From the NCBI RefSeq assembly GCF_001717955.1, contig NZ_CP014168.1, positions 4,557,501 to 4,621,500 of the forward strand: a stretch of DNA of 64,000 nt, read 5' to 3'. The DNA is from Sphingomonas panacis. GTDB lineage: Bacteria > Pseudomonadota > Alphaproteobacteria > Sphingomonadales > Sphingomonadaceae. Positions 15,458-39,288 of this stretch are shown piece by piece. The translations under genes were made by a program, and so were the position numbers. Numbering within the stretch: the first letter of the stretch is position 1; each line of letters starts with the position of its first letter. The notes beneath the pieces are model-generated. The model ran no database searches and had not been told where the DNA came from. It worked only from the letters and a program-made list of their open reading frames with translations.

Positions 15458-16644
15458 TCCTGCCCCACGCCGCATGGCGGTCGCGGCCGGGTCTCGACCG
15501 ATTGTGCGAAGTGCTGGGTCCGGGCGCGTCGCGCTTCGTCGGGGGCGCGGTGCGCGATACGCTGCTCGGGATCGATGTGGCCGACATAGACCTCGCCACC
15601 GCGCTGCCGCCCGAGGACGTGCTCGACCTTCTGCGCGCAAGCGGCATCAAGGCGGTGCCGACCGGCCTCGCCCACGGCACGATCACCGCCGTCTTGCCCG
15701 AAGGCCCGGTCGAAGTGACGACGCTGCGCCGCGACGTGGCAACCGATGGCCGCCACGCCACCGTCGCCTTCACGCGGGCGTGGGAAGAGGATGCCGCGCG
15801 CCGCGACTTCACGATCAACGCGCTCTATGCCGATCCGCGCACCGGCGAGGTGTTCGATTATTTCGGCGGGGTCGACGATCTCGCGGCGCGGCGCGTCCGC
15901 TTCATCGGTGATCCGCTCCAGCGCATCGCCGAGGATCATCTGCGCATCCTGCGCTTCTTCCGCTTCCACGCGCGCTTCGGCGAGACGGTCGATGCGGACG
16001 GACTGGCGGCGTGCGCGGCGCGTGCCAATGACCTGATGGCGCTGTCGCGCGAGCGGATCGCGGCCGAACTGCTCAAGCTGCTGCTCGCGGACAATGCCGT
16101 GTCCACGGTCGCGCTGATGATCGACAAGGGCATCTTCCGCCCCGTTCTGCCCGAGATCGTAGCAGCCGACCGCCTTGCCCGGCTGGCGACGCGCGAGGCG
16201 GACAGCGGGACCGCGCCCAACCCGATCCGCCGCCTCGCCGCGCTGTTGCCGGCCGATGCGACGATCGCGGAGGATGTCGGCGCGCGGCTGAAGCTTTCCA
16301 ACCTCGATCGCCGCCGCCTCGTCAGCGCCACCCAGCCCGCCGGGGACGCACCGGCAAAAGCGATCGCCTACACGCTCGGCCCCGATCTCGCGACCGACCG
16401 GCTGCTGCTGTCGGATCGCCCGGCCGCCGATGTCGAATCGATCGCTGGCTGGCAGCCGCCCCGCCTGCCGGTCAGCGGCGGCGCGCTGGTCGAACGCGGC
16501 GTCCGCAAGGGTCCGGAGGTCGCCAGACTGCTCCGCACGATCGAGGCGGAATGGGTGCGCGAGGGTTTTCCCGATCAGACCCGGCTCGACGCGATCGTCG
16601 ATGCGGCACTCGATCAGTGGCGGCGGGTTTCCAGCAACGCATAA
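15445..16644 (+). CDS. cca: CCA tRNA nucleotidyltransferase / poly(A) polymerase family
   Basis: The 399-residue class II nucleotidyltransferase has the N-terminal signature FVGGAVRDTLLGIDVADIDLA, with the Gly pair and the catalytic D-x-D, then RRDFTINALYADPRTGEV and DPLQRIAEDHLRILRFFRF. It adds or repairs the 3' CCA of tRNAs; a poly(A) polymerase role cannot be excluded from sequence, but the context and size favour CCA addition. ATG 15445 lies within the Nudix 3' end. The 3' end overlaps the convergent GGDEF-EAL gene by 31 bases. Confidence 0.9.
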   Translation: MGGLILPHAAWRSRPGLDRLCEVLGPGASRFVGGAVRDTLLGIDVADIDLATALPPEDVLDLLRASGIKAVPTGLAHGTITAVLPEGPVEVTTLRRDVATDGRHATVAFTRAWEEDAARRDFTINALYADPRTGEVFDYFGGVDDLAARRVRFIGDPLQRIAEDHLRILRFFRFHARFGETVDADGLAACAARANDLMALSRERIAAELLKLLLADNAVSTVALMIDKGIFRPVLPEIVAADRLARLATREADSGTAPNPIRRLAALLPADATIAEDVGARLKLSNLDRRRLVSATQPAGDAPAKAIAYTLGPDLATDRLLLSDRPAADVESIAGWQPPRLPVSGGALVERGVRKGPEVARLLRTIEAEWVREGFPDQTRLDAIVDAALDQWRRVSSNA

Positions 16645-26588: not shown

Positions 26589-26665
26589 GCGCCCGTAGCT
26601 CAGATGGATAGAGCAAGGAGCTTCTACCTCCTCGGTCGGGGGTTCGAATCCCTCCGGGCGCGCCA
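26589..26665 (+). tRNA. tRNA-Arg (anticodon TCT)
   Basis: A complete 77-base cloverleaf with encoded CCA. The acceptor stem GCGCCCG pairs with CGGGCGC; the D arm is GCTC...GAGC; the anticodon stem AGGAG/CTCCT encloses the loop CTTCTAC, giving TCT; the T arm is GGGGG TTCGAAT CCCTC with one G-T pair. It reads AGA/AGG arginine codons. The TelA-like coding gene begins 31 bases downstream. Confidence 0.95.
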
Positions 26666-26696
26666 ATCGCCCGACGGGTTGTTGAAGGATCGGCCT

Positions 26697-27566
26697 TTGC
26701 CCACTGCCCCACCCGAGCGAGACCGCGACGTTCGCGCCGAGGCGCGGCTGGTGCTGCGGCAATGGCTCGCCGTGGAGGACAATGCGGTGCTGGCGGGGAT
26801 CGATTCGCTCGGCCGGCAGGCGATCAGCGCCGCCGCCGAAGCAAGCGGACGGCTTGAGCGTGGCGTGGTGGCAACCGCTTCGGCCGAACAGGGCCTCCAG
26901 ACCTTGCAGACACTCGCGCTGAGCCTCGCGGAGCCAGCGCCGAAACCCGCATGGTCGCTGTTCCCCACCCGCGCCGCGCCCGAGCCGCCACCCGCCGCCC
27001 GCATCGAGGCGCTGGTCGATACGCTGGCGCGCGAGCGCGACTCGGTCACGCGCGCGCAGATCATGATCGACACCGACCGCACCAAGCTCCGCGCCGCGGC
27101 GACCGCGCTCGATGACGCGCTCGGCCTGATCCGCGCCTGCGCGCAGGCAGTCGAATCGGCGGCACGCGAAATCGTCCGGGAGCGGCCGGAGCGCGCCCAA
27201 TTCCTGCGCGGCGCCGCCACCGAGCGCTTGCTGGCGCGCGAACAGGACATGCTCACCCAGATCGCTGTCACGCACCAGGGCATCCTCACGCTCGATCTCG
27301 TTGCGAACAGCCAGGATGCGCTCGCGCAGGCGCTCGACCGCGCGCGCGAGACCAGCGTCGCCGCGCTGCGCACCGCGCTCGCCGCGCGCCGCGCCGTCAC
27401 CGGCAGTCAGGCCCTCACCCGGCAGGCGGCGGCGCTGGAACGCACCGCCGATGCCGCCCGCGACACGCCCACGAGCGGCAACGCGCTGCAACGCGCGCTC
27501 GACGACGCGATCGCGCAAGCCCGCCGCGCGATCGACGCCGCCGAAGCATCGCGCGGCACCCTCTAG
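26697..27566 (+). CDS. TelA-like (toxic anion resistance-type) helical protein
   Basis: A ~289-residue protein, nearly all alpha-helical and coiled-coil-like, Ala/Arg-rich. The layout resembles TelA: RIEALVDTLARERDSVTRAQ, then a helix with TKLRAAATALDDAL, a central REQDMLTQIAVTHQGILTLDL (TelA has an LT-hydrophobic block here), and a C-terminal SVAALRTALAARRAVTGSQ helix. The match is weak in the key conserved residues, so a distant family member is the best reading. The TTG start at 26697 has GAAGGA seven bases upstream; the open frame before it runs through the tRNA. It faces the ter operon, which supports a TelA role. Confidence 0.6.
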   Translation: MPTAPPERDRDVRAEARLVLRQWLAVEDNAVLAGIDSLGRQAISAAAEASGRLERGVVATASAEQGLQTLQTLALSLAEPAPKPAWSLFPTRAAPEPPPAARIEALVDTLARERDSVTRAQIMIDTDRTKLRAAATALDDALGLIRACAQAVESAAREIVRERPERAQFLRGAATERLLAREQDMLTQIAVTHQGILTLDLVANSQDALAQALDRARETSVAALRTALAARRAVTGSQALTRQAAALERTADAARDTPTSGNALQRALDDAIAQARRAIDAAEASRGTL

Positions 27567-27624: not shown

Positions 27625-28107
27625 TTGACGGGATTTCTCGACAGACTGGCGGGGTGGCTGAGCGGGCCGATCGAACCGCTGCCGACGGCGCCGGCGGGCA
27701 CCCCCGCCGCGCCGAGCGCACCCGCGATCTCCGCCGACGATCCGCGCCTGCCCGAAGCCTCGCGTCCGCTCGTCGCCCGTTTGCTCGCGCTGATCGCCGA
27801 AATCGACGCGCGCACCCGTGACGACACGCTGATGATCTCGGCGGCGACCGAAGTCCGCCAGATGCGCGACGATCATCTGCCCCGGCTGATCGAAAGCTAT
27901 GCCGAGATCCCGGCGAGCCACCGCGCCGAGATTTTCCGCCAGACCGGCCGCTCGGCCAGCTACAATCTCAATCAGGGCTTCGAACGCATGATCGCCCGTC
28001 TCGAGGCGCTGTCCCGCTCGCTTGCTCAGGAAGATCTCGACAGCTTCGCCGACAACCTCCGCTTCATCGAGAACCGCTACGGCAAAGGCGACGATCCGCT
28101 ACGATAG
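27625..28107 (+). CDS. Small helical protein, possibly XpaC-like, paired with TelA-like gene
   Basis: A 160-residue protein with a Pro/Ala-rich N-terminal part (residues 20-45) and a helical C-terminal half: HLPRLIESYAEIPASHR, NQGFERMIARLEALSRSL and DLDSFADNLRFIENRY. That tail resembles the ending of XpaC-type proteins that neighbour telA in other bacteria, but the similarity is only a pattern. It starts with TTG at 27625. It lies 58 bases after the TelA-like gene on the same strand and is convergent with AIM24. Confidence 0.6.
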   Translation: MTGFLDRLAGWLSGPIEPLPTAPAGTPAAPSAPAISADDPRLPEASRPLVARLLALIAEIDARTRDDTLMISAATEVRQMRDDHLPRLIESYAEIPASHRAEIFRQTGRSASYNLNQGFERMIARLEALSRSLAQEDLDSFADNLRFIENRYGKGDDPLR

Positions 28108-28130
28108 CGTGTCCGGCCGTCCGCAATCTC

Positions 28131-28196
28131 CGTTCGCCCTGAGCTTGTCGAAGGGCGTGTTCTGGACACGTGCTTCGACAAGCTCAGCACGAACGG
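28131..28196. repeat. Inverted repeat of the GTTCG(T/C)CCTGAGC family
   Basis: CGTTCGCCCTGAGCTTGTCG on the left answers CGACAAGCTCAGCACGAACG on the right around a ~25-base loop. It lies between the converging small helical protein gene and the AIM24 gene and may act as a transcription barrier. Same family as 9341-9473. Confidence 0.85.
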
Positions 28197-28214: not shown

Positions 28215-28997
28215 TTACCCCAGCCGCATCGTCGGCGTAAGCCACACCGTACCCGTCCCGCGGAACAGATACACCAGCCCCTCACCGCTGCGCAGCGCGT
28301 TGCGCAAGCCCCGCACCAGCGGGCGAAGCTCGACCTGCAAGCCCGCCGAATACATCAGCATCAGATCGCCATCGACGATCAGTTCCTTCTGTCCGTCGAG
28401 CTCGACCACCTCGACCTCATCCGCCGGAACCGGTGATTCGACGACGAATGCGCCTGCGCCCGTCAGCTTCGGCTGCATCAGCCCATTGCCCGACAGGATG
28501 CCCTGCACCGAGCGGTGGATGTGCGTCGACAGCGCGATATTGGCGTCGCAGGCGTAGAATGCGCCATCGTCGAGGATCAGCGAATCCTGCGGGCCGTCCA
28601 TCGCGGCGAGGATGAAGTGTTTGGTCGTCACCTCGGTCCACACCTCGCCGTAACCGGCGTAGCGAGTCGCGAACGCGCTCTCACCCGATCCCGCCGAGGT
28701 GATCGCGCGCGAGAAGAAGCCGCCCGCGCCGGCGTTCTTCTGCATCTCGACCTGCAACTTGCCGTGCGCATATTGCAGTGCGCCCGGCTCCAACAGCGCC
28801 GCGCCGCCTTCCAGCACGATGCGGACCTGCCGCGCCGTCGCGGCGTGCGGCGGGTGGAGGTGGATCACCGGCGTGGTGCCATCGGTGGTGGTGGGCATCG
28901 GCATCGCGAGCACATGGCTCTTGCGCTCGAACTGATAGACTTCGAAGCGCACGCCGGCACTGGCCTGCTCGTCGATGCGGGTCCGAAAATCGCTCAT
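28215..28997 (-). CDS. AIM24 family protein (last gene of ter operon)
   Basis: A 260-residue cytoplasmic protein of the AIM24/TIGR00266 family, a beta-rich fold of two similar sheets. Recognisable parts are VRIVLEGGAALLEPGALQYAHG (family: L.PGal...G), the IVDGDLMLMYSAGLQVEL segment, and the C-terminal FRGTGTVWLTPT. Family function is poorly known (membrane or mitochondrial biogenesis in yeast); AIM24 proteins are often found in Ter systems. The start overlaps the CitE-like gene by ATGA, so it is translated as part of the operon. Confidence 0.9.
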   Translation of the reverse strand: MSDFRTRIDEQASAGVRFEVYQFERKSHVLAMPMPTTTDGTTPVIHLHPPHAATARQVRIVLEGGAALLEPGALQYAHGKLQVEMQKNAGAGGFFSRAITSAGSGESAFATRYAGYGEVWTEVTTKHFILAAMDGPQDSLILDDGAFYACDANIALSTHIHRSVQGILSGNGLMQPKLTGAGAFVVESPVPADEVEVVELDGQKELIVDGDLMLMYSAGLQVELRPLVRGLRNALRSGEGLVYLFRGTGTVWLTPTMRLG

Positions 28998-29935
28998 TGG
29001 TCGGCTCCTGTGATGAGGCGCAGCGCAGGCTGCGGGTCAGCGATTCCATAGAAAGCGGCGCGCTCCAGCAGCCGCTCGGCCCAGGCGCGGTGAGTCGCCG
29101 GCTCGCACATCGCGCCGTCGTGCGCGAACACGGCGGGCGCGTCGTCGGCGAGCATCAGCCGCGCTTCCTCGACCTGCGCGGCTGGCACCGCGAGCGCGGC
29201 GTGAATGACGGCGATCTGGTCGGGATGGATCGCGGTCTTGCCCTGCAGGCCATGTTCGATGTCGCGCGCAACCTCCTCGCGCAGCAGCGACACGTCGGCG
29301 AACCGCTCGAACACCGGCGCGCTGAGCGCGAAGCCCCATGGCGCGAAATTCGCGACGAGGCTCGCGATGATCCCGCCGAGCGGCCCGTCATACGCGGTGC
29401 GCCCGGCGGGGCGGCGCAAGCCCATGGCACGCAGCAGATCGTTGCCGCCGATCCTGAGCGCGAGGATACGGTCCTGCACCACCAGCAACTGGTCGCGCAG
29501 CCGCCGCATCTCATAGGCGTCGCACGCCTCGCGCGTCTCCAGCGTCGGCATTAGCCGGTGCCGGTCGTGGAAGGGCAGCGCGAGATAGGCCGGCATGCTG
29601 TCGGCATGCGCCTTGGGGATGACGAAGCCGGTCAGCCGCTCCACCCCCGGCATGCACAATATCCGTTCGAGCATTGCCGCATCGCGCGGGCGCGCGAACA
29701 GCAGCGGTTCGGCCGGACCCGCCGGGCGTGCGGACAGCGTGCGCAGAAACGCGGCGAGATGCCGCAGCGCCTGCGGCACGTCGCGCTCAAGCACCGCATC
29801 CTCAAGGCACAACACCGCCGACCGCAGCCCCGGAATGCGCCGCGCGCCGAGCAGCGCCTCGGCGAGGTCGTCGCGCGTGCAGGGCATGTACAGCGTCGCG
29901 CCGAGCGCCAGCGCGGGAAGCGGTTCGAGCGTCAT
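28994..29935 (-). CDS. CitE-like (HpcH/HpaI aldolase / citrate lyase beta) enzyme of ter operon
   Basis: A ~313-residue TIM-barrel enzyme. The family motifs seen are AVLCLEDAVLERDVP (metal-binding Glu-Asp), GFVIPKAHA, LALRIGGNDLLRAMG, and GKTAIHPDQIAVIHAAL near the C terminus. Typical members cleave or form C-C bonds in acyl-CoA or 2-keto acids with Mg2+; in the Ter biosynthetic module the substrate is unknown. ATG 29935 overlaps the StiP-like gene by ATGA and its stop overlaps AIM24 by ATGA. Confidence 0.88.
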   Translation of the reverse strand: MTLEPLPALALGATLYMPCTRDDLAEALLGARRIPGLRSAVLCLEDAVLERDVPQALRHLAAFLRTLSARPAGPAEPLLFARPRDAAMLERILCMPGVERLTGFVIPKAHADSMPAYLALPFHDRHRLMPTLETREACDAYEMRRLRDQLLVVQDRILALRIGGNDLLRAMGLRRPAGRTAYDGPLGGIIASLVANFAPWGFALSAPVFERFADVSLLREEVARDIEHGLQGKTAIHPDQIAVIHAALAVPAAQVEEARLMLADDAPAVFAHDGAMCEPATHRAWAERLLERAAFYGIADPQPALRLITGADQ

Positions 29936-31038
29936 GAATCGTGTCCCAGGGTACGGATGATCGCGACCGCCCGGTAGCGAGACTGTTCGCCGAGCGGCTC
30001 GACAGGAATGCCGTGCTCGGCGGCGAGATGGAGCAGATGTGCAACGTCTTCGTCGCCCCGGTCGCGCACCAGCAGCCGCTCGGGCATCCGCCGCAGCAGC
30101 GCGCGGGTCGCCTCGGCGATGCCGGGTTTGATCCGGTTGCGGTCCTGCGTGCCGGCATGCGCCAGCAACGCCGCCATCATCGCCTCGCACCCCTCACGCA
30201 GCGCCGGGCGACGGTCGGCATGGCCTGCGATGGAACGTGGCGTCGCGGCGGCGGCGAGCGGCGCAATACCATCGACGAAAGCGCGCGACAGATCGGCCGC
30301 GGCGAACTGCGGGTACGTGACGCAGGCGTGAAAATCGCCCGGCCCGACCACGTCGGCATTGAGGATAGACCGGCTCAACAACCCCGAGACGATGCCGTTG
30401 AGCAACCCCGAGGCGATCAGATAATCATCGTCGGTCGCGGCCAGATCGGCCTGTCCGGCCGGATCGGCGATCACCGCGAGTTCGGGCGCGAACCCGAACG
30501 GACGCTCGGCCAGCGAAGCGCGGAGTTCGCCCGCGATCGCGCCCTTGCCGGTCCAGCCATCGACGAACACCGCGTCGCGCGCATCATGCCGCGCGGCAAT
30601 ATAGGCGAGTGCGTTCAGGTCGATGCCACGATCACGGATGATGCTGATCGAATAATGGCTCGCCCGGTGCCCCCAGGCGCGCAGCGTGCGCGCGAGCAGC
30701 ACCCCGATCGGCGTACCCGCCCGCGCCAGCGACACGATCACCACCTCGCGCCCCGGTCGCCGCGCCGCGACGTGCGCGGCGAGGCTCGCGACATCCTGCG
30801 CCAGCCGCGCGCCGTTGCGCGCCAGCGCGGCGTGATACAGCGCGAGATAGTCCGCCCCCGGCACGCTTTCCGGCGCGATCATCTCCGAATAATGCCGCCG
30901 GCCCGACTGGATCGCGGCTTCCTTGTCGGCGACCCCGGTCGCCGCCATCGTCACCGGCTTGAGCAGGAAGGTGACGTCGGCGGGATCGTAGCTCCCCGAA
31001 AACGGCGTTTCGGCGCGCAGCCGTGCTTCAGCCGGCAT
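29932..31038 (-). CDS. StiP-type (phosphoribosyltransferase-like) protein with Pelota-type C-terminal domain
   Basis: A 368-residue protein. The N-terminal ~260 residues match the StiP family: opening FSGSYDPADVTFLLKPVTM, VVIVSLARAGTPIGVLLAR, HYSISIIRDRGIDLNALAYI, and VFVDGWTGKGAI. The last segment has the shape of a PRPP-binding loop, so phosphoribosyltransferase-like activity is plausible even though databases call the family cysteine protease. The C-terminal ~85 residues (LLVRDRGDEDVAHLLHLAAE to YRAVAIIRTLG) fit a Pelota-like RNA-binding fold. Its start overlaps the HAD gene by 11 bases. Confidence 0.86.
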   Translation of the reverse strand: MPAEARLRAETPFSGSYDPADVTFLLKPVTMAATGVADKEAAIQSGRRHYSEMIAPESVPGADYLALYHAALARNGARLAQDVASLAAHVAARRPGREVVIVSLARAGTPIGVLLARTLRAWGHRASHYSISIIRDRGIDLNALAYIAARHDARDAVFVDGWTGKGAIAGELRASLAERPFGFAPELAVIADPAGQADLAATDDDYLIASGLLNGIVSGLLSRSILNADVVGPGDFHACVTYPQFAAADLSRAFVDGIAPLAAAATPRSIAGHADRRPALREGCEAMMAALLAHAGTQDRNRIKPGIAEATRALLRRMPERLLVRDRGDEDVAHLLHLAAEHGIPVEPLGEQSRYRAVAIIRTLGHDS

Positions 31039-31777
31039 CGAACAGCCCCCCGGCGAGCTGCGAACGCGGCGGCATCATCGCGAAGTCGCACAGCGCCATG
31101 AACGGCGCGTCGGTGTAACTGTCGCCCACGCCGATCACCGGCGCATCGGGGAAGCGCGCGCGCAGCGCCGGCAGGATATGCGCCACCGCATGGCGCTTGC
31201 CGAGATACGGCGGCATCAGCGCGACATTGTTGCCGTTGCGATGGTCGGTCCAGCCTTCGGGCAACTCCGGCACGGCAGCATCGACCACCGCGAACAGCGC
31301 CTCGGCATCCGCATCGGCATGTTTGGCGAGCGTGTAGAGCGGCAGGTCGCCCTCGCTCAGCACGCGCGCGTTGATCGCCACGCCGCGCGCGGTCGCCTCG
31401 GCGGCAATCGCCTCGGCGAACCGCGCCAGCGTGGCGGCATGCGGCGCGGCACGCGCGGCGATCGTCTCCGCCCAGGCCGCATCGACCTCACCGGTCTCGT
31501 CGAGAACCACACCACCATGCGCGCACACCGCCGCGCGGAACGGGATATGCGCCCGCCGCAGCGCATCGAGGCTGCGCGCGGTAACGGGCACGAGATGAGT
31601 CGTCTCGGCGAGCCATTCGAGGAACCGCATCTGGCGCGGCGTCGCATAGCTCAGCGGCGATCCGTCCTTGGCGAAGCCGAGCGGAGTCAGCCGCTCGACC
31701 GGCACGTCCTCCGGGCATTTGCGCAGCGTCTGGAACAACGTGTCGTCCAGATCGACGAGCGCGATCGCGCGGATCAC
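31028..31777 (-). CDS. HAD-superfamily phosphatase of ter operon
   Basis: A 249-residue HAD hydrolase. Motif I is ALVDLDDTLFQT (D-x-D), motif II probably VPVTARSLDAL (Thr), and motif IV GVGDSYTDAPFMALC (GDSxxD). The cap domain (~75-165) is of the sucrose/trehalose-phosphatase kind. It likely removes a phosphate from an intermediate made by the neighbouring phosphoribosyltransferases; the substrate is inferred only from context. The start is GTG (31777), overlapping the PRTase stop by GTGA. Confidence 0.88.
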   Translation of the reverse strand: MIRAIALVDLDDTLFQTLRKCPEDVPVERLTPLGFAKDGSPLSYATPRQMRFLEWLAETTHLVPVTARSLDALRRAHIPFRAAVCAHGGVVLDETGEVDAAWAETIAARAAPHAATLARFAEAIAAEATARGVAINARVLSEGDLPLYTLAKHADADAEALFAVVDAAVPELPEGWTDHRNGNNVALMPPYLGKRHAVAHILPALRARFPDAPVIGVGDSYTDAPFMALCDFAMMPPRSQLAGGLFDAG

Positions 31778-32877
31778 GCCGACCAGCCGATCGGCGTCGC
31801 ATCGAGCGCGGCGATCAGTGCCGGATCGATCGTGCCAGCGCCGGTCTCGTGCGCGATCAGGGTCATGCGGCCATCCGACGGATCGGCATTGTAGAGATAA
31901 TTGGGCACACCGGTTCCATAATTGTCGGAGAAGCAGAGCTTGCTGGCCATCGCCGCGCCGATCCGCGCCGGGCTGCGGCTGGTCGCCTGCACGACCACGT
32001 CATGCCCTTCGCCGGCAAGGCGCTCGGCAAGACGAAACGGCAGATAGGTGAACTCGCCAGTGCCGAGCACACGCACCGGCCCGGTGATCTCCGGCAGCGC
32101 CATATCCGGCGGCGGCGCGACCGGCGCGGCGATGCCGAGCCTGCCGACATTGCGATGCGACGCCATCCGCCCGAGCGACGCCGCCGCCTGGTCGAACCCC
32201 GCATCCGCCAGCGCCACCGCGCCCTGCGTCCACTCCAGCCGCCCGCCGAGCAGCGACGCCACCTGAGTCGGGCGCGGCATCCGCGCCTGCCAGCCGCGAC
32301 CGCGCGACCAGTCGGTCAGCGTCGCCACGACGATCGCCTCGACCCGCGGCCACGCCGCCACCAAAGCCTCGGCGAGGTTGCACAGCGTCGTGCCCGTCGA
32401 AATCTCGTCATCGACGATCACCAATGTGCGCGGCTCGGGTAGATCGGGGCGATAGATCAGATGCGCCGAGGCATGGCTGTGCGGCTCCTCGAACCGGCAC
32501 AGCAAGGGGTGGTCGAGCTGCTGGCGGGTCGAGTGCAGGAAATACACATCGTCGCGCGCGCTCGCCGCGCGCAGCTCCTCATGCACGGTCTGGCCGAGGC
32601 ACACGGCGGTTTCGGCGAGCCCGATCACCATCACCGGCCCCGGCAGACCGGCGGGGATTCGCGCCGCCAGATCGCGCGCGCTGGCGCGGATCACCTGCGG
32701 CGGCGTCGGCAGATGCCGCCCGAGCACACGCGACACGACAAGGAAACCGCGCCGCGGGTTCTCGCGCGCGGCGAACGCGCACAGCCGGTCGAGCGGCCAC
32801 ACCGCCTCCTCGATCGCGATGTCGAGCCGCCCGGTCGGCAGGTCGATGACGCGCGTCTCTTCGGCCACGCTCAGCAT
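31774..32877 (-). CDS. Phosphoribosyltransferase with TRSP-type C-terminal domain (ter operon)
   Basis: A ~367-residue protein. The N-terminal half is a PRTase: LVIVDDEISTGTTLCNL is a near-perfect PRPP-binding loop, preceded by GPVMVIGLAETAVCLGQT (an AET motif) and HSHASAHLIYRP. The C-terminal ~130 residues match the TRSP type of tail (FTYLPFRLAERLAGEGHDVV, then TSRSPARIG and FSDNYGTGVPNYLYN). It is thought to build a phosphoribosylated, nucleoside-like compound; the base is unknown. ATG 32877 is chosen; GTG 32883 is two codons upstream. Confidence 0.88.
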   Translation of the reverse strand: MLSVAEETRVIDLPTGRLDIAIEEAVWPLDRLCAFAARENPRRGFLVVSRVLGRHLPTPPQVIRASARDLAARIPAGLPGPVMVIGLAETAVCLGQTVHEELRAASARDDVYFLHSTRQQLDHPLLCRFEEPHSHASAHLIYRPDLPEPRTLVIVDDEISTGTTLCNLAEALVAAWPRVEAIVVATLTDWSRGRGWQARMPRPTQVASLLGGRLEWTQGAVALADAGFDQAAASLGRMASHRNVGRLGIAAPVAPPPDMALPEITGPVRVLGTGEFTYLPFRLAERLAGEGHDVVVQATSRSPARIGAAMASKLCFSDNYGTGVPNYLYNADPSDGRMTLIAHETGAGTIDPALIAALDATPIGWSA

Positions 32878-34019
32878 TCGCACGTCACCCGTGCGATCGT
32901 GTCACGCGCCTGCCGCACGACGGCGGCGCGGCCGATCACGGCGTTGCCGTGCGCCATCTGTGGTTCGATACCGAACGAATCGAGGAAACTGAGGATCATC
33001 GCACCTTTGATGCCGAAATTGATGTTCTCCGCGCTCGCGCCGGACTGGCGGATGCGGTCGAGGTTGAGGGAGGAACACACCAGCCCGATCAGATGCCCGG
33101 CCATATCGAGGATCGGGCCGCCACTGTTGCCGCTGGCGATCGGTGCGGTGAACTGGAAGAGGCTGCTGTCATTGCCGATTCCGCACAAAGCCGCAATGTT
33201 GCCCGCGCTCGCCTGCGGTCCGGTGCCGAGCAGCCCCTGCAAGGGAAACCCCAAGGCGACGACATCCTCGCCCAGGTGAAGCCCCACTTCCGATCGGAAC
33301 TGCGCCACCCCCGCCATCGGCGTCTCGACGCGGAGCAGCGCGAGATCGTTGCGGCGATCGGCGAACACCGTATCGGCGGAAAGCGGCCGTCCGCCCGCCT
33401 GCACCGTCACCGTCCTCGCGTCCTCGACAACATGTGCGTTGGTCAGGATGTGGTGCCGCTCGATCGCGACACCGCTACCGCTCGACGCGCCGGTTCGCGG
33501 TGCGCGCTCGTCGGCGTCGGGCGGTTGCAGCCGCGGGATCAACCGCGTCACCCAGCTATGATCGATCCCATAGGCCGCCGCGATCGCGCTCAGCCCCATC
33601 GCGAAGCCCTGCCCGTTGGCCGCGATCCGCCACGCGCCCTGGTGCCGGTAGCATTCGATCAGGATCACCGCCGCGTCGGGCCGCTCGCGCAGATCGACCG
33701 CGAAGCGCAGCGCCTCGGTTTCGAGCGTGACGACCCGCGCGATCGGCTGGTTGCCGCGATCGAACGCGATCAACACCAGCCGCTCGACCGCGCCCGGCAT
33801 GTCATCGAGCGCGACGCGCAGCCGCGCGCCATCCTCGAATTGCGCCGCCGGGCGCATTTCGCGGGTGAGCGCATCGATCGGCGGGAAGACCGGCGACACG
33901 CGCCGGTCCGCCCCCAGCGCGATCAGCGCCAGCGTCGGCTGGTCGCCGCCATCCCCGGCGAGCGCGAAAACGCCCGCGCCAGCGATGGCAGCCCGTTCGC
34001 CCGCAACCAGATCACGCAT
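32871..34019 (-). CDS. TerD-like domain fused to trypsin-like serine protease
   Basis: A 382-residue two-domain protein. Residues ~1-150 resemble TerD (LVAGERAAI at the start, VILIECYRHQGAWRIAANGQ and FAMGLSAIAAAYGID at the end), but the calcium loop is not present. Residues ~170-370 are a trypsin/HtrA-type protease with the complete triad: His in TNAHVVED, Asp in RRNDLALL, Ser in ASGNSGGPI. There is no signal peptide or PDZ domain, so it is probably cytosolic. It lies 21 bases after terD and overlaps the PRTase gene. Confidence 0.9.
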   Translation of the reverse strand: MRDLVAGERAAIAGAGVFALAGDGGDQPTLALIALGADRRVSPVFPPIDALTREMRPAAQFEDGARLRVALDDMPGAVERLVLIAFDRGNQPIARVVTLETEALRFAVDLRERPDAAVILIECYRHQGAWRIAANGQGFAMGLSAIAAAYGIDHSWVTRLIPRLQPPDADERAPRTGASSGSGVAIERHHILTNAHVVEDARTVTVQAGGRPLSADTVFADRRNDLALLRVETPMAGVAQFRSEVGLHLGEDVVALGFPLQGLLGTGPQASAGNIAALCGIGNDSSLFQFTAPIASGNSGGPILDMAGHLIGLVCSSLNLDRIRQSGASAENINFGIKGAMILSFLDSFGIEPQMAHGNAVIGRAAVVRQARDTIARVTCEC

Positions 34020-34040
34020 CGGCGGGCGATGTCCTGCGTG

Positions 34041-34616
34041 TCAGACGTTGACGCCGAACGACTGGGCAAGCGGCCCCAGACCACCGGCGAAGCCTTGGCC
34101 GATCGCCTTGAACTTCCACTCGCCATTGTTGCGGTAGAGGTCGCCGAAGATCATCGCGGTCTCGGTCGATGCGTCTTCGGACAGGTCGTAGCGCGCGATC
34201 TCGGTGCCGCCATCGCCGTTGACGACACGGATGTACGCGTTCGAGACCATGCCGAAATTCTGCTTGCGCGCATCGGCGTCGTGGATCGTCACCGCGAAGC
34301 TCAGCTTCTCGATCTCGGCGGGCACCTGGTCGAGCGTGACCACCACAACCTCGTCGTCGCCGCTGCCCTCGCCGGTCTGGTTATCGCCCTGGTGGACGAC
34401 CGAGCCGTCGGCGCCGTTCTTGTTGTTGTAGAACACGAAATCGGCGTCTGAACGGACCTTGCCGGCTGAGGTGAGCAGGAAAACGCTCGCGTCGAGATCG
34501 AAGGCACTGCCGTCGGTGACGCGCGTATCCCAGCCGAGGCCGACCCGGACGACCTTGAGGCCGGGTGCTTCCTTGCTGAGGCTGACGTTGCCGCCCTTGG
34601 AAAGTGAAACTGCCAT
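34041..34616 (-). CDS. terD: TerD family stress protein
   Basis: A 191-residue TerD/TerE protein: [58 protein letters not shown], and the Ca2+-binding TGEGSGDDE. The C-terminal [20 protein letters not shown] is also typical. TerD proteins bind calcium and are needed for tellurite and phage/colicin resistance in model Ter systems. AGGAG precedes ATG 34616. It is a close paralogue of the upstream gene at 34643. Confidence 0.96.
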
Positions 34617-34642
34617 GTCGAACTCCTGTGTGGCCGAAAGAT

Positions 34643-35221
34643 TCAGCCGATGTTGACGCCGTAATTGCGCGCGAGCGGGGCGAGGCCACCCTTGAAGCCC
34701 TGCCCGACCGCGCGGAACTTCCATTCGCCATTGTGGCGATAGACTTCGCCGAAGACCATCGCCGTCTCGGTCGAGGCGTCCTCGGCGAGATCGTAACGCG
34801 ATATCTCGCGGCCAGTCGCATCGTTGACGATGCGGATGAACGCGTTCGAGACCATGCCGAAGCTCTGGCGGCGCGCCTCGGCCTCATGGATCGTCACGCT
34901 TATCGCGATCTTCTGCACGTCGGCGGGCACGCGGGTCAGTTCGACCTTGAGCGCCTCGTCGTCGCCGTCCCCCTCGCCGGTGCGGTTGTCACCGGTATGT
35001 TCGACCGATCCGTCGCTCGAACGCAGGTTGTTGTAGAAGATGAAGTCGCTGTCGCTGCGCACCTTGTCGCCCGCCGTAAGCAGGAACGCGCTCGCGTCGA
35101 GATCGAAATCCGCGCCGTCGGAGGTGCGGGTATCCCAGCCGAGCCCGATCAGGATCTTGCTGAGATCGGGCTCCTCCTTTGACAGACTGACGTTGCCGCC
35201 TTTGCTAAGGCTAACCGACAT
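34643..35221 (-). CDS. terD: TerD family stress protein (second copy)
   Basis: A 192-residue paralogue of 34041-34616 with [60 protein letters not shown] and the acidic TGEGDGDDE calcium loop. The two differ mainly in surface residues and may have arisen by tandem duplication; they could form hetero-oligomers. Short intergenic gap to the DUF475 gene above it. Confidence 0.96.
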
Positions 35222-35236
35222 GATGGTGTCTCCTGC

Positions 35237-36337
35237 TTACGAGATGTTGAGGCGTTCGCCGGTCGGCGCGACCGCGTCGTCGTCATCGTCGCCCTTCGAG
35301 CGCAGTGAGGCGACGAAGGCGAGGCCGATGAGACCCGCGCCGATCAGCCCGGTCACCGTCTCCGGGATTTCGAAGCGCACCGACAGCAGCATGATCGTGG
35401 CGAGCGCGATGATCGCATAGAACGCGCCATGCTCCAGAAAACGATATTCTGAGAGCGTGCCGCGATCGACCAGCATCACCGTCATCGACCGCACGAACAT
35501 CGCACCGATGCCGAGGCCGAGCGCGATGATGAACAGGTTGTTCGACAAAGCGAACGCGCCGATCACCCCGTCGAACGAGAAGGACGCATCGAGCACTTCG
35601 AGATACAGGAACGCCGCCAGCCCCGATTTCGCCGCCGCCACCGCGACGGCCTGCCCACCGGCATGGCCCGCGTCCTCATCGCCCTCACCCTGTTCGAGCA
35701 ACGCGCCGATCGCCTGCACCGCGATATAGGCGACCAGCCCGAAGATGCCCGCGGTGATGAAGGTCATCGCCTCCTCGGGCGCGATCATCCGCGAGATGCC
35801 GTAGAGCGCGAGCAGCACGATGCCGATCGCCAGCCCCGAGATGCGTGACAGGCTTGAGAACGGCCGCTCGATCACGCCGATCCAGTGCAGATCCTTCTCT
35901 TCGTCGAGGAAGAAGGTCAGCCCGACCATCGCGAGGAAGGCGCCGCCGAAGCCGGAGATGCCGACATGCGCGCCGGTGATGATCCGCTCGTAGGTGACCG
36001 GGTCGGTCGCGGCGAGCTTGAGCGCCTCGATCGGCCCGACCTGCGCTGCGATCGCGACGATCACCAGCGGGAACAGGATTCGCATCCCGAACACCGCGAT
36101 GATGATGCCCCATGATAGGAAGCGCCGCCGCCAGACCGGGTCCATGTCGCGCAGCACGGTCGCGTTGACGACCGCATTGTCGAACGACAACGACACTTCG
36201 AGCACGCCCAATACCAATACGATCCACAGGATGCCGAGCGTGCCGGCCACATCATGCGTGATCGTCCAGCCCAAAATCGCCCCGAGCACGAGGCACAGCG
36301 CGGTAAAAAGCAACGATCCCCTGAAATATTTAAACAC
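35237..36337 (-). CDS. DUF475 / TerC-like membrane protein
   Basis: A ~366-residue integral membrane protein with about eight to nine helices. It opens VFKYFRGSLLFTALCLVLG, followed by LGVLEVSLSFDNAVVNATVL and later LEVLDASFSFDGVIGAFAL: these paired segments carry the conserved acidic residues of TerC-type proteins, probably a metal-binding site in the membrane. The acidic tail (GDDDDDA) is cytoplasmic. GTG 36337, with GGGGA six bases upstream, is the best start. It is probably the membrane anchor of the Ter complex in place of TerC. Confidence 0.92.
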   Translation of the reverse strand: MFKYFRGSLLFTALCLVLGAILGWTITHDVAGTLGILWIVLVLGVLEVSLSFDNAVVNATVLRDMDPVWRRRFLSWGIIIAVFGMRILFPLVIVAIAAQVGPIEALKLAATDPVTYERIITGAHVGISGFGGAFLAMVGLTFFLDEEKDLHWIGVIERPFSSLSRISGLAIGIVLLALYGISRMIAPEEAMTFITAGIFGLVAYIAVQAIGALLEQGEGDEDAGHAGGQAVAVAAAKSGLAAFLYLEVLDASFSFDGVIGAFALSNNLFIIALGLGIGAMFVRSMTVMLVDRGTLSEYRFLEHGAFYAIIALATIMLLSVRFEIPETVTGLIGAGLIGLAFVASLRSKGDDDDDAVAPTGERLNIS

Positions 36338-36366
36338 TGTAATTCCCCGGTTTGCCGCGTGCGGCC

Positions 36367-37551
36367 TCAATCTTTGCGCCCGGAGACCCAGCGCAGGCCC
36401 CAGCCGAGCGATTCGTCCAGCACGCGCGTATCATGATGATATTCCACGATCCGCGTAACCTTGATTGCGCCCGCATCATTTTCGATCAACACGATTCCGC
36501 ACAGCCGCCGGTCATCGCGGCCTTCGGTCAGCCGCACTTCGATCGGCGGCTGGTCGGGCATGGTGACGAGCACCACGCCATCGGTCTGCTGCCAGTTGGG
36601 TACGCCCGAATAGATGTTGGCGAACACCGCGATACGCTTGATCTGCGGCCAGAACGCGCCGTTGATCCGCAGCGTCTCGCCCGCCGACACGTCGCCGGTG
36701 CGGTCGTCGCCCGACAGCATGACATACGGCGCCTGATCGAACGATCCGAACGCGTTGCCGAGCGCCTGCACCCCGCCCTTGCGCCCATCGGCAAGCTCGA
36801 ACAGGCAACCGATGTCGAGATCGATCGCGCTGCCGCCGCCGAACAGCCCCTTGCGCCCGCGTGACCAGTTGAGGTTGATCGTGATCTCACCGAAGCTGTT
36901 GCCACGCTTGGCGAGGCTTACGGTTTGCCCGCGCTTCTCCAGCGTCACCTTGCTGAGACTGACCGGCGGCGCGGCTGGCGGAGGTGCGGGGGGCGGCGGA
37001 GGCGGTGCCGCCGCAGCCGGCGCCTCGTCGGCGACATCGATCCCGAACGAGCGCGCGAGCGGGGCAAGCCCGCCGTTGAACCCCTGCCCGACCGCGCGGA
37101 ACTTCCACTGCCCGTTGCGACGATACAGTTCGCCGAAGGTCATCGCCGCCTCGCTCGCAGCCGCGAGTTGCGGACGGAAGCGCAAAGCCTCCCCGCCACC
37201 ACGCGGCGCGACCGTGATCTCCGCGCCGTCGAGCCGCGCCAGCGTCTGCCCGCGCGTCTGCGCCTCGTGGATCGTCACGCAGAACACGATCCGCTCGATC
37301 TCGGCCGGCAGCCGCGCGAGATCGACCTCGAACGCGCCCTGCCCGCCCGACGCGGCGAAACGGATGCCACCGTTGCCGCCCTCGGGCTGGTTGTAGAACA
37401 CCATGTCGGTGTCGCCCCGCACCTTGCCCGCACCGGTCAGCAGATAGGCAGATGCATCGGCATCCACCCCGCCCGCAGCGGTCCAGGCAAAGGTTACGGT
37501 CAGCGCATCGCCGGGCACGGGCGCGTTGCCGCCTTGTTGCAGATCGGTCAT
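36367..37551 (-). CDS. TerD-TerA fusion protein with proline-rich linker
   Basis: A 394-residue protein. Residues ~15-165 form a TerD domain that has lost the GDNxTGxGxGDDE calcium loop (it reads AASGGQGAFEVD there), ~170-195 is a Pro/Ala linker (PPPPPPAPPPAAPP), and ~200-394 match TerA (SLSKVTLEKRGQTVSLAKRG, INLNWSRGRK, LDIGCLFELADGRKGGVQAL, VFANIYSGVPNWQQTDGV). The start is ATG 37551 behind AGGAGATCGC. Loss of calcium residues implies a scaffolding rather than sensing role for that half. Confidence 0.9.
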   Translation of the reverse strand: MTDLQQGGNAPVPGDALTVTFAWTAAGGVDADASAYLLTGAGKVRGDTDMVFYNQPEGGNGGIRFAASGGQGAFEVDLARLPAEIERIVFCVTIHEAQTRGQTLARLDGAEITVAPRGGGEALRFRPQLAAASEAAMTFGELYRRNGQWKFRAVGQGFNGGLAPLARSFGIDVADEAPAAAAPPPPPPAPPPAAPPVSLSKVTLEKRGQTVSLAKRGNSFGEITINLNWSRGRKGLFGGGSAIDLDIGCLFELADGRKGGVQALGNAFGSFDQAPYVMLSGDDRTGDVSAGETLRINGAFWPQIKRIAVFANIYSGVPNWQQTDGVVLVTMPDQPPIEVRLTEGRDDRRLCGIVLIENDAGAIKVTRIVEYHHDTRVLDESLGWGLRWVSGRKD

Positions 37552-37594
37552 GCGATCTCCTGTTCGTGTCGGCAAAATAGAATGGGCGGCGGCG

Positions 37595-38176
37595 TCAGAG
37601 CACGCCGCGGATCACCCCCATCATGTCGTGGAATGTCCGTCCGGTGGTACGCTCGCCCAGCGCCTTCATCTCCCAGCCATCGCCCGATCGGACCAGCTTC
37701 GCCATCACCTGGCCCGTGTGCGGGCCTGACCCGGTCAGGTCATAGCGCGCCATTTCCTTGCCGTCGCTCAAATCGATAACGCGGCAATAGGCGTTTTCGA
37801 TCCGGTCGAAACTTTCGCCGGTGAAGCTGTTGACGGTGAACACCAGCGCGGTGACCGTAGCGGGCACGCGAGTCAGATCGACGTTGATCGTCTCGTCGTC
37901 ACCGTCGCCGGCGCCGGTGCGATTGTCACCGCTATGGACGATGCTGCCATCAGTGCTGGCAAGCTGCCGGAACCACACCTGATCGCGCACATTGCCGCCG
38001 GCATCGAACAGCAGGCACGAAGCATCGAGATCGATATCGCCGCCACCGCCGCCCAACAGCCCGAACAGACCCTTGGATTTGCGCACGTCCCAGCCCACGC
38101 CCATCGCCACCCGCGTCAGCGCGCCGCCACCCGATTTCTCCAGCCTTACGGACTGGCCTTTTTGCAGACTGACCAA
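37595..38176 (-). CDS. TerD family protein, TerZ-like
   Basis: A 193-residue TerD-fold protein: VSLQKGQSVRLEKSGGG, VAMGVGWDVRKSKGLFGLL, a DIDLDASCLLFDAGGNV segment, SIVHSGDNRTGAGDGDDET with the calcium ligands, and the C-terminal RSGDGWEMKALGE. The Gly-rich insert (LLGGGGGD) after WD is typical of TerZ/TerX. The start is TTG 38176 (GGAG eight bases upstream). It is the first gene of the ter core, with its own likely promoter at 38200-38228. Confidence 0.92.
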   Translation of the reverse strand: MVSLQKGQSVRLEKSGGGALTRVAMGVGWDVRKSKGLFGLLGGGGGDIDLDASCLLFDAGGNVRDQVWFRQLASTDGSIVHSGDNRTGAGDGDDETINVDLTRVPATVTALVFTVNSFTGESFDRIENAYCRVIDLSDGKEMARYDLTGSGPHTGQVMAKLVRSGDGWEMKALGERTTGRTFHDMMGVIRGVL

Positions 38177-38199
38177 GCGGGCTTCTCCATGAACTCATT

Positions 38200-38228
38200 A
38201 TTATAACGCGCTGTATGCCAAATGATTA
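38200..38228 (-). promoter_or_regulatory. Likely promoter of the ter core genes
   Basis: On the minus strand a perfect TATAAT lies at 38205-38200 inside a locally AT-rich stretch in a GC-rich genome. A weak -35 (TAATCA) lies 17 bases upstream. The TTG start of the TerZ-like gene is 24 bases downstream of the -10. It would let the ter core be transcribed separately from the ATP-grasp gene. Confidence 0.5.
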
Positions 38229-38289
38229 TGACGTTTGACCTACAAACCACAAGGCCGGACGATCGTGCCCATCCCGGCGCAGCTTCCGT

Positions 38290-39288
38290 TCATCGCCGCC
38301 GCTCGGCACGGACCACGGCAACGATCTCGGCATCCACGTCCGCGTCGAAGCGCCGGGCGGTTCCGGTCACCACGTCGATCCAGGTGGTGCTGAACGGTAT
38401 GCCGACCGCATCGCAATAGGACGCGCCACCAGCGGCGCGCGTGTTGATTTCGAGGATTCGCCACGCCCCGCCGCGATCCTGCCGATACTGGACGTTGACC
38501 GCGCCATGCAGCGCATAGCGCGCGACCAGACCGGTCGCATGCGCGATCAACGGATGCCGCGTCTCGATGCGCTGGCGGTTGGCGTCGAGCTTGGTCCGCA
38601 CCGCCGCGACCAGAACGTCTCCACGATCCGCGACCACATCGACCGAAGCCTCCAGCCCCGGCAGATGCTCCATGACGAGCAAGGAGAAGTCCTCCCCCCG
38701 CGCCTCGCCCTCGCGCAAGGCGGCGGCGTAGACTTCGGGGGTGATCCGGCGCGCATCGGGATCAGCGAGATGCTGGAGCGCGGCCACCGCATCGAGCGTC
38801 CAATAGCCCGCGCCGTAAATCCCCGTCGACGGCTTTACGCAGGCGGAAGCACCGCCTTGCGTCAACGCATCCACCGCCGCCTCGAACGCCAAGGCCGACG
38901 TGACCGGGATCGTCGGGCACAGCATCGGATCTCCCGCCAGCGCCACCGAGAATGCCGCCTTGTCGTCGAGCAGCCGCAGCGTCACCGCGTCGGCGGCAAC
39001 ATGCAGCGCGATCCCCTCCGCCGCGAACCGGTCGGCCATCGCGGCGACATCCATCCGCCCGCGCTGCGCGACCAGCGCATCGACACGCCGCTCGATCGCG
39101 GTCGCCAGCAGCCATTCCGGGTAATCGACCGTGCCGCGCGCCGGCTCCTGCCAGAATTCGGGCGCGACATCGCACACCGGCGACTCCGGGTCGATCGCGC
39201 TGACCGCGAGTTGGACGCCGGGCCGTTCCGACACGATCCTTGCGACGATGTTGCGAAGCGAAAACGATTGGTTGAACCACACCTTCAT
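38290..39288 (-). CDS. ATP-grasp ligase of the Ter biosynthetic module
   Basis: A 332-residue ATP-grasp enzyme. The ATP-binding lysine is in ACVKPSTGIYGAGYW, hinge residues in LVMEHLPGLEASVDVV, and the Mg2+-binding E...N in WRILEINTRAAGGASY. It joins a carboxylate to an amine or thiol via an acyl-phosphate; in this module it probably acts on the nucleoside-like intermediate. It is the most upstream of the minus-strand genes and is divergent from rplK across 199 bases. A 113-base gap with a promoter separates it from the ter core. Confidence 0.88.
   Translation of the reverse strand: MKVWFNQSFSLRNIVARIVSERPGVQLAVSAIDPESPVCDVAPEFWQEPARGTVDYPEWLLATAIERRVDALVAQRGRMDVAAMADRFAAEGIALHVAADAVTLRLLDDKAAFSVALAGDPMLCPTIPVTSALAFEAAVDALTQGGASACVKPSTGIYGAGYWTLDAVAALQHLADPDARRITPEVYAAALREGEARGEDFSLLVMEHLPGLEASVDVVADRGDVLVAAVRTKLDANRQRIETRHPLIAHATGLVARYALHGAVNVQYRQDRGGAWRILEINTRAAGGASYCDAVGIPFSTTWIDVVTGTARRFDADVDAEIVAVVRAERRR

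Follow-up and report, generated by a model that had tools for sequence, protein, structure and literature searches.

To our knowledge, Ter operons have long been known for resistance to tellurite, phages and colicins, and they have no accepted mechanism. TerB is a usual but not universal part of such systems. In 2012 Anantharaman, Iyer and Aravind reportedly described a Ter operon with a biosynthetic module, counting PRTase_2, TRSP, StiP, PELOTA_1 and C-C_Bond_Lyase among its families, and AIM24 and TelA are said to be part of the operon as well. The subject here is a gene cluster of this kind in a 64,000-nucleotide stretch of Sphingomonas panacis DNA (NZ_CP014168.1, positions 4,557,501 to 4,621,500; hereafter the window), from a genome of 5.32 Mb in two contigs. 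The core of the cluster is a known kind of stress system, and the form found here is a variant with a conserved fusion of a TerD-like domain to an HtrA-type protease and with an unnamed partner family. In a passage on Ter systems in general, the signal is described as a nucleotide derivative, with TerB and TerD as ligand-binding parts, TerC as a membrane part, and TelA and TerF as sub-membrane parts (PMC7824862).

Compared with the 2012 module, the window shares ATPgrasp_Ter, PRTase_2 with TRSP, StiP with PELOTA_1, a HAD enzyme, C-C_Bond_Lyase, TerD, TerA and the TerC family, but it has no TerB or TerY in the cluster, a DUF475 protein as its TerC, and two additions, the TerD-protease and a small gene here called orf28k. 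The Pseudomonas aeruginosa plasmid Rms139, which we take to be of the IncP-2 group, carries a ter region (LC653116) that shares ATP-grasp, TerD-protease, PRTase_2, HAD, StiP and CitE with the window in that order. Unlike the window it has the enzymes ahead of the ter genes, TerB, and a second HAD gene; its protease is 33% identical to that of the window over 86%, and no orf28k or TelA match was found in its 27-kb stretch. The same run of genes, followed by ter genes with TerB, is present on a P. rhodesiae plasmid. Four loci in genomes of the phylum (L229-L232) encode the enzymes and TerB, with no protease match; their enzymes diverge from the ter genes, whereas all cluster genes of the window lie on one strand, and this divergent layout resembles the Klebsiella ter locus as far as part of one source describes it (PMC8115787). 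A TerD-Tryp architecture, sharing with the window a TerD domain N-terminal to a trypsin domain, was noted in a 2008 survey for YP_273108.1 of Pseudomonas syringae, which the relevant passage calls not functionally characterised (PMC2605481).

Evidence that the protease belongs to the cluster comes from its neighbourhoods in other genomes. A locus scan with the protease as query, limited to one genome per species and to the best 80 of 565 loci, gave 12 full-length or nearly full-length relatives (L064-L075), all in Sphingomonadales and all 12 followed by PRTase_2, HAD, StiP and CitE; in the other 68 loci (L076-L143) only the protease matched among the cluster queries, and these were left out. 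With the window and 11 more, these 12 bring the number of distinct loci to 24, all from Sphingomonadales (L165, the same contig as L065, is counted once), and in 24 of 24 the protease lies upstream of PRTase_2 on the same strand, with no gene between them in 22, where they overlap or stand at most 68 bases apart. Across a sample of 396 Sphingomonadales genomes, with the protease called at E <= 1e-40 and StiP above its cut-off, the protease occurred in 13 of 15 StiP-positive and 0 of 381 StiP-negative genomes (Fisher p 1.4e-22, ignoring shared ancestry). It was also matched in 140 plasmid records, 126 of them from Pseudomonas, a count taken separately from that for StiP (2568). In the same class but outside Sphingomonadales, locus L060 has a TerD-protease divergent from PRTase_2-HAD-StiP. 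A DUF1523 protein and a relative of TerB are encoded there too, and no stand-alone TerD, TerC, CitE or ATP-grasp was detected.

The fusion is matched in Pfam by Trypsin_2, Trypsin and TerD only. Its C-terminal part has PDB relatives in DegQ (6z05, E 3e-14), DegS (5jd8, E 1.7e-13) and DegP (2zle, E 3e-13), and its N-terminal part is TerD-like. The pairing of TerD (PF02342) with a trypsin model was found in 120 of 120 fusion relatives among the matches listed, and the TerD match is also present in the fusions of L060 and Rms139. The catalytic residues His196, Asp225 and Ser299 are kept in all 28 fusion sequences aligned, two of which come from Pseudomonas plasmids (27 are distinct, L065 and L165 being one genome). 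At the TerD calcium site, numbered as in PMC8779313, where a passage refers to the structure of K. pneumoniae TerD, aspartate is found at positions 40 and 42 in none of the 28 fusions, D88 is kept in one, and position 78 is acidic in 15 (14 Glu, 1 Asp); the N-terminal half of this alignment joins distant sequences, with L167-L176 gapped at the calcium positions. The listed site position 29 is W here, with D at 30, and the numbering is perhaps off by one at that point. Residues of the C-terminal half of the domain are retained, namely A154 (27/28), E159 (26/28), and Y161, G175 and G179 (28/28). Both TerD proteins encoded between the DUF475 gene and the fusion keep D40, D42, D78, D88 and E89. 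With the S1C proteases HtrA, DegP and DegS the fusion shares the trypsin fold and the His-Asp-Ser triad; it differs in having no Pfam match to a PDZ domain, a TerD-like domain instead, and no evident signal peptide, no hydrophobic stretch being seen, by eye, in its N-terminus (MRDLVAGERAAIAG). Some S1C proteases are without PDZ domains. The fusion ends in C-x-C in the window and in L064-L072 (32871-32882 in the window) and in C-x-[GA] in L073-L075, possibly a redox or metal tail; in the 28-sequence alignment no such tail is found in L060, L166-L176 or the two Pseudomonas plasmids.

The reading preferred here, tentatively and at somewhat less than an even chance, is that of a Sphingomonadales variant of the Ter chemical-stress systems in which a metabolite pathway based on phosphoribosyl pyrophosphate (PRPP) is coupled to a TerD-scaffolded cytosolic protease. 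The gene content and order, the intact catalytic residues, the absence of key calcium ligands from the fusion, the co-occurrence, and the predicted phosphoribosyltransferase (PRTase) fold of StiP are observed here; the chemistry, the docking, the trigger and the substrate are inferred, as are the place in the cell and the stress that the system answers. PRTase_2 and StiP, both of PRTase type, would transfer phosphoribose from PRPP to a base-like acceptor, the HAD enzyme would take off a phosphate, and the CitE-like lyase and ATP-grasp ligase would tailor the product. At the inner membrane, a calcium-binding assembly of TerD and TerA with the DUF475 protein as metal carrier may sense metal imbalance, bind the product, or both. 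The cytosolic HtrA-type protease would dock on this assembly through its TerD-like domain, a fold without calcium residues; held back or released by the state of the assembly, it would cleave a cytosolic target on a stress signal. Docking rather than sensing is proposed for this domain because its calcium ligands are absent. TelA and orf28k would form a further pair near the membrane. The metabolite arm is reportedly as proposed by Aravind and co-workers, and what would be added to their scheme is an output, the TerD-tethered protease. It is possible, if unlikely, that this protease is the signalling output of Ter, its PDZ domain replaced by a calcium-dead TerD-like domain and its proteolysis switched on by a calcium-bound TerD/TerA shell that a phosphoribosylated metabolite from the neighbouring enzymes modulates.

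Several observations weigh against a coupling of this kind. An interaction of protease and metabolite is not demonstrated by co-occurrence. The StiP-positive loci L221 and L222 are without the protease and keep orf28k, TelA and most else (no ATP-grasp was seen in L221); L229-L232, L058, L059 and L061 also lack it, so the pathway can exist without a protease. In L167 (736 bases) and L169 (1143 bases) protease and PRTase_2 are separated by another open reading frame (ORF), and no TerC was found in L066 or L071, two of the 24 loci. The TerD signal in the fusion is weak (38 bits in Pfam, in the window); in the ten loci L167-L176 the TerD ancestry of the protease depends on a profile match that starts at position 79-83, and the protease of L168, one distant relative tested, has no Pfam TerD match. 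Co-transcription rests on gene spacing, because a promoter consensus scan found sites no more numerous than in shuffles. The missing proteases, and a TerD part that Pfam cannot detect in L168, would suit a linked passenger, that is, an HtrA duplicate with a degenerate piece of TerD kept by operon inertia. Such an origin is very doubtful, given that the triad is kept in all 28 sequences, with identities as low as about 33%, that the protease holds one and the same place in Sphingomonadales and on the Pseudomonas plasmids, and that the reduced locus L060 retains it.

The DUF475 and TerD proteins also invite an explanation by homeostasis of Mn, Ca or Te, in which DUF475 moves metal that TerD and TerA buffer. 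The enzymes would produce a metabolite that binds metal, and the protease would have a house-keeping role, clearing proteins damaged or mis-metalated under stress. TerC-family proteins are described, in a passage on B. subtilis, as moving Mn and helping to metalate exported enzymes (PMC12096827), and terCD alone are stated in part of another source to give tellurite resistance in Pseudomonas citronellolis (PMC8779313). In L058, L059 and L061, which also encode TerB (by Pfam in L058 and L061, by BLAST in L059), a Na/Ca exchanger (PF01699) stands in the place of TerC. Metal homeostasis would, however, leave unexplained both the conserved PRPP enzymes and the presence of a calcium-dead TerD-like domain on a protease beside PRTase_2, and it has to accommodate the two loci of 24 in which no TerC was found; it is considered somewhat unlikely.

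StiP, one of the two enzymes of PRTase type in the preferred reading, is named a cysteine protease by Pfam (PF11202) and in plasmid annotation (26 of 30 StiP plasmid matches, among the matches listed). Among 31 aligned StiP sequences there is no invariant cysteine column, C239 being missing in L059 and L061, and the invariant residues are S103, R106-G108, D160, W162, K165 and G166. The AlphaFold2 model of StiP (predicted local distance difference test, pLDDT, 93.8; predicted template modelling score 0.92) matches 6igs, of the HPRT/PyrR-type PRTases, with a Foldseek probability of 1.00; PRTases of this type fill 48 of the 50 VIA rows listed, with a capsule-synthesis multienzyme in the first two. 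On its residues, with no invariant cysteine, and on its predicted PRTase fold, a role as cysteine protease is rejected, and the database name is, judging from the model, probably wrong. Likeness to HPRT and PyrR is one of predicted fold, with 9-17% identity only in the listed PRTase rows, and StiP differs further by a PRPP-type loop, VDGWTGKG, and an added C-terminal PELOTA_1 domain. The top Foldseek row is a selenocysteine lyase (E 4.3e-4, probability 0.72, root-mean-square deviation 18 A), and other pyridoxal phosphate enzymes recur in the list (probability 0.23-0.72, deviation 15-21 A); these matches were treated as chance. An initial annotation made from the sequence alone (hereafter the first-pass annotation) had read two of the enzymes as PRTase-like, which the fold predicted for StiP by the model, Foldseek and VIA bears out. 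A view of the enzyme set as the under-described part of the system is not supported, since StiP alone is matched in 2568 plasmid records (1052 Klebsiella, 130 Pseudomonas), and in 2562 of them the match covers 80% or more of its length. One StiP relative, with 48% identity, lies on the viral-classed contig L236 (IMGVR_UViG_2660238583_000003), the sole one among viral contigs.

According to Pfam's own description, ATPgrasp_Ter belongs to a biosynthetic pathway with the Ter operon, and in the window PRTase_2, StiP, HAD, C-C bond lyase and ATP-grasp all lie in one neighbourhood. In PRTase_2 the PRPP-loop residues D158, D159, E160, T163, G164 and T166 are invariant in 41 of 41 sequences. The HAD gene has no Pfam match; its motif residues D9, D11, T66, K194, D219 and D223 are invariant in 40 of 40. 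Constancy of the set was judged in 40 StiP loci from 39 genomes, chosen via protease, PRTase_2 or StiP and therefore not a random sample, some of them cut by contig ends: by BLAST at 1e-6, PRTase_2 was found in 40, HAD in 39, CitE in 34 and ATP-grasp in 19. Because of these counts, PRTase_2, HAD and StiP would be the makers of a core compound, which CitE and ATP-grasp may tailor. The first-pass proposal that Ter genes are here joined to the nucleoside-like-metabolite module of Aravind and co-workers is supported as to the joined system. The five-enzyme set is not constant, nor can the system be called complete, with no TerB and with ATP-grasp and CitE absent from some related loci. ATPgrasp_Ter was rejected as a marker of the cluster, because 57 of 61 near genomes have a match to it, in most cases in a frame some 1100 residues long that is taken for carbamoyl-phosphate synthase; the best match among the 61 is 2.9e-27 in G000 and the next 4.5e-15 in G009, where no other cluster gene was found (L063). 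Also rejected was a minimal kernel in the Bradyrhizobium elkanii plasmid locus L234 (NZ_CP126008.1). Its gene table shows only PRTase_2, an unnamed protein and StiP, and its PRTase_2, HAD and StiP are 74-81% identical to those of the window; a short protease remnant (69% identity, E 4.6e-15) stands in front, with insertion sequence elements behind. The locus is a transferred, decayed piece of a window-type cluster in another bacterial order and no evidence for a minimal working kernel.

The distribution of the cluster is sporadic. Of 385 genomes of the class, 5 (G000 among them) have PRTase_2 above its cut-off. The genes that flank the cluster in the window, which to one side include ribosomal L11 and L1, were met again only next to L064 and L065 (and the duplicate L165). 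In L170 the tRNA-side neighbours of the window adjoin the opposite end of the cluster, with a tRNA-Arg at 15792-15868, as if the cluster had been inserted the other way round at the same tRNA-Arg. Among 25 loci, counted without the window and L165, a tRNA gene lies within 300 bases of the cluster edge in seven, its 3' end always towards the cluster; L064, L065 and L170 have tRNA-Arg there, and the remaining four have Val, Ser, Gly and Thr. From the tRNA density of 68 other loci (L076-L143, mostly not Sphingomonadales), 0.6 would be expected within 600 bases against the 7 observed. This excess, with the constant orientation of the 3' ends, suggests that the cluster was inserted at tRNA genes. 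The other 18 loci show no edge tRNA, and between the tRNA-Arg and the far border of the window cluster there is no attachment-like repeat, the longest shared stretch being 11 GC-rich bases. In L067-L069 and L221 a superfamily 1 (SF1) helicase of about 1500 residues with an MTES_1575 restriction-type nuclease lies beside the first TerD gene, inside the cluster and on the opposite strand (L067:1367-5947, L068 from about 1440, L069:1469-5977, L221 from about 11021; identified by Pfam on L069 and by BLAST in the other three), and in L067 and L069 the helicase is between that TerD gene and ATP-grasp. The 2012 Ter paper reportedly names DNA processing in its title, in line with such genes in the cluster.

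Sporadic occurrence, differing flanks and tRNA borders would also fit an anti-phage or anti-plasmid conflict system in which phage entry shifts the level of the metabolite and the TerD-protease acts as effector, shutting down the cell. Ter systems are described in part of PMC7824862 as serving phage and xenobiotic resistance with a signal-metabolite arm; the helicase and nuclease of L067-L069 and L221 would fit as well, and the protease domain resembles that of RT-Protease_XI defence proteins (PADLOC E 5.1e-15). That PADLOC match, however, is confined to the trypsin fold and is the only one among the ten proteins scanned, and StiP has a single relative on a viral contig. Abortive infection, moreover, is not usually encoded by very long enzyme operons. 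A conflict system of this kind is judged distinctly unlikely.

Besides the protease, a pair of genes converging with AIM24, TelA and orf28k, recurs with the cluster. Each of the 25 distinct Sphingomonadales loci examined besides the window has a relative of orf28k, the protease-free L221 and L222 among them. The family numbers 166 relatives, with no Pfam domain in the 120 listed, and those listed that bear an organism name are from Sphingomonas, Sphingobium, Novosphingobium or Croceibacterium; one relative, P0158, carries the automatic name of an HflD-like regulator. The protein is predicted to be helical (AlphaFold2 pLDDT 80.6) and has no clear PDB match, and no relative was found on viral contigs. 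XpaC is a usual partner of TelA. A comparison of orf28k with XpaC (PF10112) by hhalign gave a probability of 0.24%, from 7 XpaC sequences and shallow profiles. TelA adjoins orf28k in 21 of the 25 loci (9 by BLAST, 9 of 10 by Pfam, and 3 of 3 more). In the Pfam test L221 scored 29.6 bits, just under the cut-off of 30, and L166 was negative; BLAST showed no TelA in L073 or L075, and L074 ends there. The likely TTG start of TelA, inferred from its relative in L065, is 16 bases past the 3' end of the tRNA-Arg on the same strand, and because of this TelA may be read from the tRNA promoter, the two sharing a transcript. A tRNA also stands beside TelA in L064, L065, L067, L070 and L072.

The features of the cluster are collected in Table 1. 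The twelve genes on one strand that the first-pass annotation described are all present by ORF calls, on the minus strand from 39288 to 28215, and its account of their spacing is accurate, 10 of 11 junctions being shorter than 30 bases or overlapping. From the ATP-grasp end the junctions measure 113, 19, -4, 15, 26, 21, -13, -4, -11, -4 and -4 bases, so that with the starts used the sole junction of at least 30 bases is that between ATP-grasp and the next gene; with the ATG start of the TerA-type gene one further gap becomes 43 bases. The order is not chance, because it is found in further genera of Sphingomonadales. The nearest named relatives of the window proteins, among the matches listed, are from Sphingomonas, with L064 belonging to S. 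populi and L065 to Sphingomonas sp. NFR15. Locus L069 is that of Sphingomonas sp. ATCC 31555, which serves as an industrial producer of gum. Pfam names 11 of the 12 genes, and the types previously listed (TerD, DUF475 TerC, TerA, five enzymes and AIM24) are borne out, except that the gene for the TerD-like and HtrA-type protease had gone unnamed. The name TerA is presumably right for its gene, whose second TerD-like half scores 22.7 bits, under the cut-off. TerB, TerY and TerF had been called absent. This holds for TerB and TerY within the cluster, where Pfam finds no TerB among the 12 genes (only L074 shows one among the other Sphingomonadales loci), but a gene with TerD and a von Willebrand factor A TerF-like (vWA-TerF) domain stands alone elsewhere in the chromosome (by Pfam, C1:3459029-3460285; locus L062:7030-8286), more than 1 Mb from the cluster, near ORFs that look like a metal efflux pump. 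What had been overlooked is the TerD-protease fusion, the pair of TelA and a helical protein, and a distribution that is sporadic and in part bordered by tRNA genes. AIM24 and orf28k are separated by an inverted repeat, which a terminator scan did not flag; it may be a terminator acting in both directions or belong to a dispersed repeat element.

Table 1. Genes and other features of the Ter cluster and its tRNA-proximal border, in window coordinates.
Feature	Position	Strand	Evidence
ATP-grasp ligase (ATPgrasp_Ter)	38290..39288	-	Pfam PF15632 E 3.1e-27
TerD-domain protein	37595..38176	-	Pfam PF02342 E 5.8e-46
TerA-type protein, two TerD-like halves	36367..37575 (ATG start 37551)	-	Pfam PF02342 E 9.8e-50, 2 stretches
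DUF475 / TerC-family membrane protein	35237..36370	-	PF04332 E 8.5e-109; PF03741 E 2e-17; NCBIfam NF010620 above cut-off
TerD protein with D40, D42, D78, D88, E89	34643..35221	-	Pfam PF02342 E 4.9e-88
TerD protein, start MAVSLSKGG (longer ORF from 34724)	34041..34616	-	Pfam PF02342 E 1.1e-84
TerD-like domain + HtrA-type trypsin-fold protease (H196, D225, S299)	32871..34019	-	Trypsin_2 E 4.4e-26; TerD E 1.2e-9
PRTase_2 + TRSP phosphoribosyltransferase, PRPP loop VDDEISTGTT	31774..32883	-	PF15609 E 8.5e-57; PF12500 E 2.2e-13
HAD-type phosphatase	31028..31777	-	HAD motifs; NCBIfam TIGR01484 (HAD-IIB) E 9.8e-4, below cut-off
StiP (predicted PRTase fold) + PELOTA_1	29932..31038	-	PF11202 E 4.4e-97; PF15608 E 3.4e-25
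CitE-like C-C bond lyase	28994..29935	-	PF15617 E 1.1e-87 (on longer ORF 28994-30190); PDB 3qll E 5.5e-11
AIM24-domain protein	28215..28997	-	Pfam PF01987 E 2e-35
Inverted repeat, 31-nt arms, 87% complementary	28130..28196	.	convergent AIM24/orf28k junction
orf28k, unnamed 160-aa helical protein	27625..28107	+	kept in related loci; no Pfam domain in the 120 relatives listed
TelA-family protein, likely TTG start	26682..27566	+	Pfam PF05816 E 4.8e-12 on ORF 26604-27566
tRNA-Arg (tct), 3' end towards cluster	26589..26665	+	borders cluster

For the biology of these systems, the fold result suggests assaying StiP as a PRTase, and the position of PRTase_2, HAD and StiP as the most constant enzymes by occurrence narrows the hunt for the product. 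A protease fixed beside the metabolite enzymes is a candidate output of the pathway that is directly testable via what it cuts. If its role as signalling output is true, then together with TelA and orf28k it would make a metabolite-gated proteolytic stress or conflict response common to Sphingomonadales and Pseudomonas plasmids.

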